The position numbers were made by a program, and so were the translations under genes. Of a stretch of 64,000 nt of DNA, positions 34,716 through 37,377 are shown in pieces (positions within the stretch are counted from its first letter, which is position 1; each line of letters begins with the position of its first letter). The notes beneath the pieces were generated by a model. It worked only from the letters and a program-made list of their open reading frames with translations, was not told where the DNA came from and searched no databases. Source of the stretch: Variovorax sp. HW608 (GTDB lineage Bacteria; Pseudomonadota; Gammaproteobacteria; Burkholderiales; Burkholderiaceae_C); contig NZ_LT607803.1 of assembly GCF_900090195.1 (NCBI RefSeq), positions 744,001-808,000 on the forward strand, written 5' to 3'.

Positions 34716-36077
<1,362 letters not shown>

Positions 36078-36098
36078 GGACTTCTCCGGGCAAGAACG

Positions 36099-36126
36099 AA
36101 AAAACCCAGCTGCCAGAGCTGGGTTT
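36099..36126 (-). terminator. attenuator terminator before hom
   Basis: On the minus strand there is a perfect 10-bp stem (36126-36117 paired with 36111-36102; core AACCCAGCT / AGCTGGGTT) with a 5-nt loop, running into six U residues (36104-36099). It ends only 22 bp before the hom ATG, so it must be bypassed for hom to be transcribed from the leader promoter. Together with the leader peptide it forms an attenuator. Confidence 0.9.
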
Positions 36127-36153
36127 CATTCATTCGGGGAGAAGAGAGATCAC

Positions 36154-36195
36154 CAGGTGGCTGCCGGAACGGCCACCTGCGCGTGCTCAGGTGGC
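36154..36195 (-). promoter_or_regulatory. mutually exclusive hairpins of the hom leader
   Basis: Three 8-base blocks alternate on the minus strand: GCCACCTG (36195-36188), CAGGTGGC (36179-36172) and GCCACCTG (36161-36154). The middle block can pair perfectly with either neighbour, so only one hairpin can form at a time. The first block contains the last codons of the leader peptide. This is the layout of ribosome-controlled switching, although the link to the terminator arm is not obvious by eye. Confidence 0.7.
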
Positions 36196-36318
36196 CGCGG
36201 TGGTAATGGTGGTAATCATTCGTGCATCCAGTGCCTGCACAGCCCGCGCGAAGGCGGACGGCATCATGCGGCCCGTGGGGGCGACGCTGATGGCGGTCTG
36301 GAATGGATGGCACGACAT
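36187..36318 (-). CDS. threonine/isoleucine-rich leader peptide of hom
   Basis: A short frame whose last ten codons (36219-36187) read MITTITTAAT and stop: five ACC threonine codons and two ATT isoleucine codons in nine, like enterobacterial ThrL. The same frame is open back to an ATG at 36318 (43 residues). Internal ATGs at 36267, 36264 and 36219 give 26, 25 or 10 residues. None has a strong ribosome site, so the true start is open. Translation past the Thr/Ile codons would sense charged tRNA-Thr and tRNA-Ile and control termination ahead of hom. Confidence 0.72.
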   Translation of the reverse strand: MSCHPFQTAISVAPTGRMMPSAFARAVQALDARMITTITTAAT

Positions 36319-36357
36319 GGGGCCGCAGTGTACAGGAGTGCGCTGCTCGCGAATCCG

Positions 36358-37377
36358 TCACGTGCTGTCCCGGGCGACGATCTCGAAGCCGAGGTCGATG
36401 CATTGCGCTTCCGGCGCTTCGCCCGCAAGCCGCGTCAGCAGCATCTGGCCCGCGCGCTCGCCCATCTCGGCGCGGCGGATTCGTATCGTGGACAACTGCG
36501 GTGTCGCGGCGCGCGCCACCGGCTGGTCGCCGAAGCCGAGGACTGCGAGCTTCCTCGGCACCGGACAGCGCACGCGGTGGCATTCGAAGAGCACCGCGGC
36601 CGCGAGCAGGTCGTTGTTGCAGAACACGCCGTCCAGATCGGGTTGGCGCGCAACGAGCTGCTGGAGCCGCGCGCCGGCTTGATCCATCTGCGCGGGCGGA
36701 CGGATCAGCTCGGCAGCGACCGTGCGCACGCCCAGCTTCGCCGCCTCGGCCTTGAAGCCGTCGAGCCGGCGGCGTGACCGGTCTTCCTCGGCACCGATGA
36801 AGCCGAGCGAGCGGCACCCGCGCTCGATCAGATGGCGCGCCGCGAGCCGGCCGGCGTCGCGGTTGGAGAAGCCCACCACCATGTCGACGAGCGCCGCGCC
36901 GTTGTCGGGCAGGTCCCAGGTCTGCACCACCGGCAAGCCGGCGCGCTTCAGGCGCACGATCAGCGCCGGGCTCTGGTTGCAGCCGGTCAGCACCAGCCCG
37001 TCCACCCGGCGGCCGAGGAAGGCATCGACCAGCGCCGCCTCCTCCGCGCCGCGGTAGGCGCTCTGGCCCAGCAGCAGCTGGTGGCCGGACTCGGCGAGCG
37101 TCTGGGTCAGCGCCTCGATGGTTTCCGAGAAGACGGGATTGGAGATCGTCGGCACCACCGCCGCCACGATGCGCGAGCGGCTGGAAGCGAGGCTTCCGGC
37201 CGTCAGGTTGGGCACGTAGCCGAGCCGTTCGATGGCTGCCCGCACCACCGCGAGCGTTTCGGGCGCCAGCTTGTCGGGTGCATTGACCGCGCGGGACACC
37301 GTGACCAGCGAGACCCCGGCAGCCTGCGCCACATCGCTCATGCGCGCGCGGGAGATGGAGCCGGTGGCGTTCGTCAT
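36358..37377 (-). CDS. LacI-family transcriptional regulator
   Basis: A 339-residue repressor. The N-terminal HTH and hinge (about 12-65) contain MSDVAQAAGVSLVTVSRAVN and PNLTAGSLASSRS. The periplasmic-binding-like core follows (VVPTISNPVFSE, VFCNNDLLAAAVLF, LGFGDQPVA). It resembles gluconate-operon repressors. It is divergent from the Bug-protein gene of the hexuronate/hexarate cluster. Two matching operator palindromes lie in the shared intergenic region, so it should repress both itself and the cluster. An imported sugar acid or lactone is the likely inducer. Confidence 0.94.
   Translation of the reverse strand: MTNATGSISRARMSDVAQAAGVSLVTVSRAVNAPDKLAPETLAVVRAAIERLGYVPNLTAGSLASSRSRIVAAVVPTISNPVFSETIEALTQTLAESGHQLLLGQSAYRGAEEAALVDAFLGRRVDGLVLTGCNQSPALIVRLKRAGLPVVQTWDLPDNGAALVDMVVGFSNRDAGRLAARHLIERGCRSLGFIGAEEDRSRRRLDGFKAEAAKLGVRTVAAELIRPPAQMDQAGARLQQLVARQPDLDGVFCNNDLLAAAVLFECHRVRCPVPRKLAVLGFGDQPVARAATPQLSTIRIRRAEMGERAGQMLLTRLAGEAPEAQCIDLGFEIVARDST

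Follow-up and report, generated by a model that had tools for sequence, protein, structure and literature searches.

Is the homoserine dehydrogenase gene hom2 of Variovorax sp. HW608 controlled by the short open reading frame (ORF), rich in threonine and isoleucine codons, that precedes it and, if so, by what kind of switch? The initial annotation of this stretch of DNA (the window, 64 kb in full) had read the region as a Thr/Ile leader-peptide attenuator before hom in a beta-proteobacterium, and had suspected a switch unlike the E. coli layout. Sequence evidence supports both ideas, the second in the form of a five-arm relay with a Shine-Dalgarno-covering helix. Homoserine is the precursor of threonine, isoleucine and methionine, and in E. 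coli thrLABC a leader ORF with a Thr/Ile run and an intrinsic terminator lie before a homoserine dehydrogenase gene. We estimate a probability of about 0.75 that a ribosome-mediated transcription attenuator controls hom2, the second homoserine dehydrogenase gene. Judging from sequence evolution and, in part, from folding, the Thr/Ile attenuator is real and widely conserved, has a new architecture and belongs to one beta-proteobacterial family.

The hom2 gene (34716..36077, minus strand) encodes a homoserine dehydrogenase of 453 aa with NAD_binding_3 and Homoserine_dh matches; family models match the product over almost its entire length, and the match to NCBIfam PRK06349.1 is near full length. 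A PF00742 search of the 7.7-Mb genome returned hom2 as one of two homoserine dehydrogenases, so the earlier description of a 'lone' hom holds for the operon, in which the gene stands alone by eye, but not for the genome. The compact leader lies on the minus strand between hom2 and a gene for a LacI-type regulator (36358-37377; assigned by eye). Elsewhere in the genome, a model of the leader had no convincing match, the next best having an E value of 0.19.

The predicted leader ORF (36187..36318, minus strand; 43 codons) translates as MSCHPFQTAISVAPTGRMMPSAFARAVQALDARMITTITTAAT* and ends in ATG ATT ACC ACC ATT ACC ACC GCG GCC ACC TGA, which bears out the five ACC and two ATT codons previously claimed at its end. 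Its frame is open from ATG to stop in 103/103 distinct loci, is 31-50 codons long and stops inside the first hairpin in every one. The control codons, M I T T I T T (36199..36219, minus strand), were assigned from codon counts and ribosome-position folding. Across the 103 loci, Thr makes up 57%, Ile 29% and Met 6% of codons -9 to -4, so that the run is 92.7% I/T/M; the more 5' parts of these ORFs contain 4.8% T and 1.2% I. A short predicted ORF in which a series of regulatory codons specifies an end product of the target pathway is present in 103/103. Met replaces Ile at codon -9 in 9/103 loci and at codon -6 in 22/103, and Met, too, is an end product made from homoserine. An ORF that is long for a leader and has a conserved end might instead encode a functional small protein or an arrest peptide, with the hairpin as an ordinary terminator. 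We find this hardly credible: the N-terminal part is highly variable in both sequence and length, conservation falls on the control run and the RNA arms, ACC, ATT or ATG account for 560 of the 618 control-run codons, and arms outside the ORF coevolve.

An extended -10 promoter element, TGTACACT, was assigned from sequence at 36327..36334 (minus strand), with a TACACT-like element in 103/103 loci. The leader ATG follows TACACT or a close variant by 6-12 nt in all 103 distinct loci (by 7-10 nt in 97), and transcription is predicted to start at about 36320-36318. Because this start would fall about 7 nt after the -10 element, the leader peptide is probably translated from a leaderless or nearly leaderless mRNA. 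A start at the internal ATG of MITT was rejected, since Met is absent there in 9/103 loci and no Shine-Dalgarno sequence was noticed before that ATG, whereas the promoter-proximal ATG is present in 103/103 loci. A small GC hairpin within the leader ORF (36259-36242, GTCCGC/GCGGGC; GCCTGC/GCAGGC in L012) has apparent compensatory changes among relatives, all seen by eye, and might pause RNA polymerase so that a ribosome can start.

Downstream of the control codons we delineated five arms on the minus strand, the first three from coevolution and pair counts. Arm 1 (GCGGCCACCTG, 36188..36198) ends in the leader stop codon and can pair with arm 2 (CAGGTGGCCGT, 36169..36179), which can pair alternatively with arm 3 (TCCGGCAGCCACCTGG, 36153..36168). 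The three alternately pairing blocks described earlier were found here as arm 1, arm 2 and, within arm 3, GCCACCTGG at 36161-36153. Arm 4 (36112..36126) is the 5' half of the terminator with its loop, and arm 5 (36099..36111) is the 3' half with the U6 tract. Together they give the hairpin AAACCCAGCT/AGCTGGGTTT at 36126-36102, with the loop CTGGC and U6 at 36104-36099, which confirms in sequence the terminator hairpin and U6 that had been placed 22 nt before the hom ATG (36077). Taken alone in this single sequence, the terminator exceeds the chance expectation by little (1 found, 0.4 expected). An intrinsic terminator between leader ORF and gene, scored as a hairpin of -7 kcal/mol or lower before a T run, is present in 66 of 68 distinct leaders, under a rule loose enough for L066 and L068 to pass despite a U-tract that is poor by eye. 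The initial annotation had found the antiterminator pairing 'not evident'; this was wrong, because arm 3 also pairs with the terminator. In the window, 36168-36153 pairs with 36122-36105 over 14 bp, which takes in most of the terminator and captures arm 4.

Searching 100 same-genus (Variovorax) genomes at E values below 1e-170 gave 61 hom2 orthologues, and the upstream DNA, read for each, carried the leader in 61/61; for L034 and L045 it came from the family-wide search. A locus that keeps hom and has lost the Thr/Ile codons or the hairpin, named beforehand as the finding that would speak against an attenuator, did not occur among these 61. With a 132-nt DNA query (E<=1.5e-8), we found the leader in 46 of 399 family genomes, which represent 17 genera; it was followed by hom2 in 43 of the 46. 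Two hom matches were present in 43/46 leader genomes, compared with 9/353 genomes without the leader; in G448 and G467, two of these nine, a single gene appears to be divided between two contigs, and four of the nine carry an additional hom gene behind a different Thr/Ile leader. The nearest relatives of the locus are from Variovorax, followed by Acidovorax and one Giesbergeria. Left out of the counts were the duplicate loci L033, L035 and L079, the weak matches L080-L082, which by eye are not leaders, and seven more weak matches of the 399-genome search; the relatedness of the sequences limits the independence of all counts. It is the conservation in 61/61 same-genus hom2 loci and in 17 genera that places the terminator beyond chance. 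A covariance model (R1) gave three matches in 399 genomes of the order, none of them outside the family, under strict filters and with few family members drawn. A hom2 profile, run at E<=1e-185 on 300 genomes of the order, found nothing above the ordinary-hom level outside the family; this cut would miss copies as distant as L194 (584 bits), so hom2-like genes may occur elsewhere.

An alignment-free coevolution test, in which the pairing of an arm with its own partner was compared with its pairing with partners from other genera (34 distinct arm sets, 15 genera), showed that cognate arms pair better than cross-genus arms for 1:2 (z = -3.4, 12/15 genera), 2:3 (z = -3.6, 11/15), 3:4 (z = -4.8, 14/15) and 4:5 (z = -4.4, 12/15). 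Compensated 3:4 changes were visible by eye, namely GGTCA:TGACC (L053), CGGTCG:CGACCG (L077), CTGCCT:AGGCAG (L056) and GCGGCC:GGCCGC (L052), and terminator-loop bases outside the terminator stem track arm 3 (GGTCA/TGACC in L053, GGTCG/CGACC in L077). Pair counts in a MAFFT alignment of 44 of 59 non-redundant cores (near-identical ones excluded) gave covariation scores above 500/500 shuffles for 1:2, 3:4 and 4:5 and above 486/500 for 2:3. In the same 44 sequences, two pairs of 1:2 changed on both sides (reached by 121/500 shuffles) and just one pair of 2:3, a weak signal reached by 448/500; a G-C/U-A pair of 3:4 is unpaired in 22/44, and 4:5 slid by +1 column outscores the true register (covariation 0.109 vs 0.068). 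The control codons tentatively pair with the 3' edge of arm 3 (z = -3.3, 10/16 genera). Sequence comparison demonstrates the predicted ORF, its codons, the five arms, their coevolving pairings and the linkage to hom2, and the arms would act as a relay in which 1:2 plus 3:4 gives readthrough and 2:3 plus 4:5 gives termination.

In the textbook 1:2/2:3/3:4 attenuator layout, of the trp type, a ribosome stalled on the Thr/Ile codons would mask arm 1 and leave 2:3 as the antiterminator. The control codons do adjoin arm 1, and three alternately pairing blocks do exist, but the exclusive coevolving partner of the terminator is arm 3, and masking arm 1 in the folding model gives 2:3 plus the terminator (0.89-0.98). 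Since arm 3 lies outside the terminator stem, 2:3 cannot preempt the terminator. For these reasons we rejected the classical layout and consider a canonical trp-type attenuator quite unlikely at this locus.

In the five-arm relay, a promoter abutting the leader ATG would yield a (nearly) leaderless mRNA whose ORF of 31-50 codons ends in the Ile/Thr(/Met) run. For lack of charged Thr or Ile tRNA, the ribosome would wait on the first Met-Ile-Thr-Thr, short of arm 1, which would then pair with arm 2; the free arm 3 would capture the terminator, and RNA polymerase would read into hom2. If amino acids are plentiful, the ribosome would enter arm 1, with its stop codon, 2:3 would pair and the terminator 4:5 would form. 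The leader would in this way respond to tRNA charging.

The predicted dependence on ribosome position comes from folding calculations. We scanned a ribosome along 66 leaders with a scorable terminator hairpin, folding the RNA downstream of it for each codon at 30 C (equilibrium, pseudoknot-free); the ribosome 3' edge was set 16 nt from the first P-site base, and 13 nt gave the same numbers shifted by one codon. A ribosome stalled on the first four control codons leaves all or most of arm 1 free. With the A-site at -10 to -8 and arm 5 not yet made, 1:2 formed 10.4-10.8 bp and 3:4 formed 8.8-8.9 bp, weakening at -7 to 8.7 bp and 8.0 bp. With the A-site at -6 to -1, 2:3 formed, and the mean P(terminator) in the full transcript was 0.89-0.98. 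At the stop codon, the ribosome masks part of arm 2, so that 3:4 (7.6 bp) exceeded 2:3 (5.4 bp) before arm 5 was made; P(terminator) in the full transcript was 0.84, and with no ribosome it was 0.82. The full transcript stalled at -8 is a near tie, with a mean P(terminator) of 0.56 and values above 0.5 in 35/66 leaders. Folding with the ribosome footprint, as the initial annotation had proposed, thus supports a choice of antiterminator by ribosome position on average over the 66 leaders, but not in each: of the 22 leaders printed singly, six (L036, L046, L057, L069, L073 and L077) show no switch, and L054 and L063 hardly switch.

Shuffling arm 3 in 25 Variovorax leaders removed the drop in the stalled state, P(terminator) rising from 0.63 to 0.98. 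When the linker between arm 3 and the terminator, or arm 2, was shuffled in these leaders, the stalled P(terminator) rose to 0.92 and 0.84, respectively, so arm 3 is not the sole part that matters. Four unlike leaders of related hom genes (genera g12 and g48) showed no switch, with P(terminator) at 0.91-1.00 throughout, which argues that the method by itself does not create one. We rejected a role for the leader codons ahead of -11 when the RNA is untranslated, because shuffling these codons left P(terminator) at 0.83 vs 0.82 (66 leaders). Forcing the control codons to be unpaired lowered it from 0.82 to 0.75, by more than 0.2 in 8/66 leaders.

Because a ribosome on the first Met-Ile-Thr-Thr favours 1:2 plus 3:4 in folding, starvation should turn hom2 on; the predicted sense is on in starvation and off in plenty. 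The same relay could be imagined with the opposite sign, starvation stalling ribosomes on the second I-T-T, masking arm 1 and turning hom2 off. An A-site at -6 to -4 does favour the terminator, so the sign hinges on whether ribosomes halt at the first hungry codon. However, the same amino acids come earlier, at -9 to -7, where stalling favours readthrough, and the pathway needs induction on starvation, judging from known thr, his and trp control. A reversed sign therefore seems to us very unlikely.

The pyrimidine linker (36129..36144, minus strand; defined by coevolution) is complementary to the hom2 Shine-Dalgarno sequence GGAGAAG (36081..36087, minus strand; assigned from sequence and coevolution), as CTTCTCC:GGAGAAG, and also to TTCGTTC; the complementarity to the Shine-Dalgarno sequence was seen in the 21 loci printed. 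Cognate linker and Shine-Dalgarno sequences pair at -15.4 kcal/mol, compared with -12.2 kcal/mol across genera (z = -5.2, 13/15 genera, 61 sequences; the effect is opposite in g11 and g118), in a test run without L046, L053, L077 and L078, for which no start was found, and without L062 and L064. Such a sixth helix, stacked on the terminator, would cover the hom2 ribosome-binding site. In a model of the readthrough mRNA, the Shine-Dalgarno sequence was covered wherever the ribosome stood (0.91-0.94, 62 sequences); as the helix forms in this model whatever the ribosome does, we infer its regulatory use. It may contribute control at the level of translation, or take the place of termination in loci that have lost the U-tract.

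In four loci from distant genera (L062, L064, L066 and L068), the codons, arms and terminal hairpin are kept, a good U-tract is missing by eye, and the Shine-Dalgarno sequence lies close behind. The missing U-tract would fit translational control there, possibly by conversion from transcriptional control. One could go further and make the linker:Shine-Dalgarno helix the effector of a mainly translational switch, with the hairpin and U-tract secondary, given that this helix has the strongest coevolution of those tested and that these four loci retain arms and codons. We judge this unlikely, because 66/68 distinct leaders have the hairpin of -7 kcal/mol or lower before a T run and because the helix is insensitive to ribosome position in the model.

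Within transcription attenuation by the five-arm relay, a tentative reading is that the leader works as a position gauge and not as a plain stall sensor, antitermination occurring only while a ribosome on the leaderless mRNA occupies the first Met-Ile-Thr-Thr. Without a ribosome, the control codons would pair with the arm-3 edge and the RNA would terminate, and a ribosome further along would also give termination. One RNA would then control both termination and, via the coevolving Shine-Dalgarno helix, translation; some genera would have shed the U-tract and now be purely translational; and the amino acids read would be Thr, Ile and, in part, Met, each an end product made from homoserine. Taken jointly, these proposals are possible but doubtful.

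Some loci of the family depart from this arrangement. In three genomes of genus g73 (L060, L061 and L067), the leader is kept and hom2 is reduced to a frame of 114-119 aa, which joins a short N-terminal piece to one that can be aligned with the hom2 C-terminal part, the NAD-binding and catalytic parts being gone; L058, also of g73, has a full-length hom2. The reduced frame may be a regulatory domain that stands on its own, still under the same switch, or a product of decay. L175 and L191 (g12) and L194 and L195 (g48) are hom genes with a different Thr/Ile/Met leader, examples being MRPQPIAITITTTTAQRDVAVGI and the GTG-started VRSTHSIAMITMITTPLWGEVVSVQVL; these leaders have another terminator-like hairpin and no switch in the equilibrium model. 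The four genes fall outside the ordinary-hom clade (100/100) in a tree used solely for their placement, in which L001, L181 and L198 (wrong frame) formed a false outgroup.

Many genera of one beta-proteobacterial family have an element of different design ahead of the same pathway step, and hom2 would be the starvation-induced member of the homoserine dehydrogenase pair. About 100 natural sequences and a chain of coevolving helices make attenuator design rules directly testable, among them arm number versus sign, the leaderless start, and termination versus Shine-Dalgarno cover.

No Rfam family reached its gathering score in the 64-kb window, and riboswitch and T-box models had no match at the leader (64-kb window; E<=10 in 36000-36400). 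Thr_leader, which we take to be the Rfam name for the thr leader family, was not among the five weak matches at E<=10 in 36000-36400. As no Rfam model matched, the leader is not filed under Thr_leader. To our knowledge, Thr/Ile attenuators are known only from gamma-proteobacteria, and full-text searches, with most subscription papers and supplements outside reach, found no account of a hom attenuator in these bacteria. According to the accessible text of a survey of Rfam motifs, amino-acid attenuators may have originated in gamma-proteobacteria, with very few transfers (PMC3766115). The metXZ RNA element of beta-proteobacteria, which belongs to the same pathway and controls metX/metZ, has a predicted terminator/antiterminator, six conserved regions and a possible pseudoknot; as far as the accessible text of that study goes, its main text does not contain the phrase 'leader peptide' and hom is named under other regulators only (PMC4239095). 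On that description, metXZ is a different RNA from the hom2 leader.

Three known attenuators bear comparison. In Sinorhizobium meliloti, the accessible text on trpL describes an attenuator RNA that begins at the leader-ORF ATG and may therefore act as a leaderless mRNA (PMC7298713). The hom2 leader RNA, which apparently also starts at its leader ATG, is similar in this respect; unlike it, trpL is a 14-aa Trp leader from an alpha-proteobacterium, and we claim no relation. In the his attenuator of Salmonella and E. coli, the pause hairpin and the terminator are separated by an additional hairpin (PMC1183508, as far as accessible), and on this description the chain of alternative hairpins in the hom2 leader is closer to his than to trp. 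The hom2 leader differs from his in the regulated amino acids and the target, and its counterpart of arm A, the control codons with the arm-3 edge, is tentative. In the his arm lettering, B:C plus D:E is set against C:D plus E:F, and the exclusive pairs of the hom2 leader correspond to these. The E. coli thr operon leader has eight ACC codons (PMC1183508, accessible text). The hom2 leader is like thrLABC in having an ACC-rich Thr/Ile run in its ORF and an intrinsic terminator before a homoserine dehydrogenase gene. Unlike thrLABC, its ORF is 31-50 codons long, apparently leaderless and stops inside arm 1; Met partly replaces Ile; the switch is a five-arm relay that would control a second hom gene alone; and it is found in one beta-proteobacterial family.
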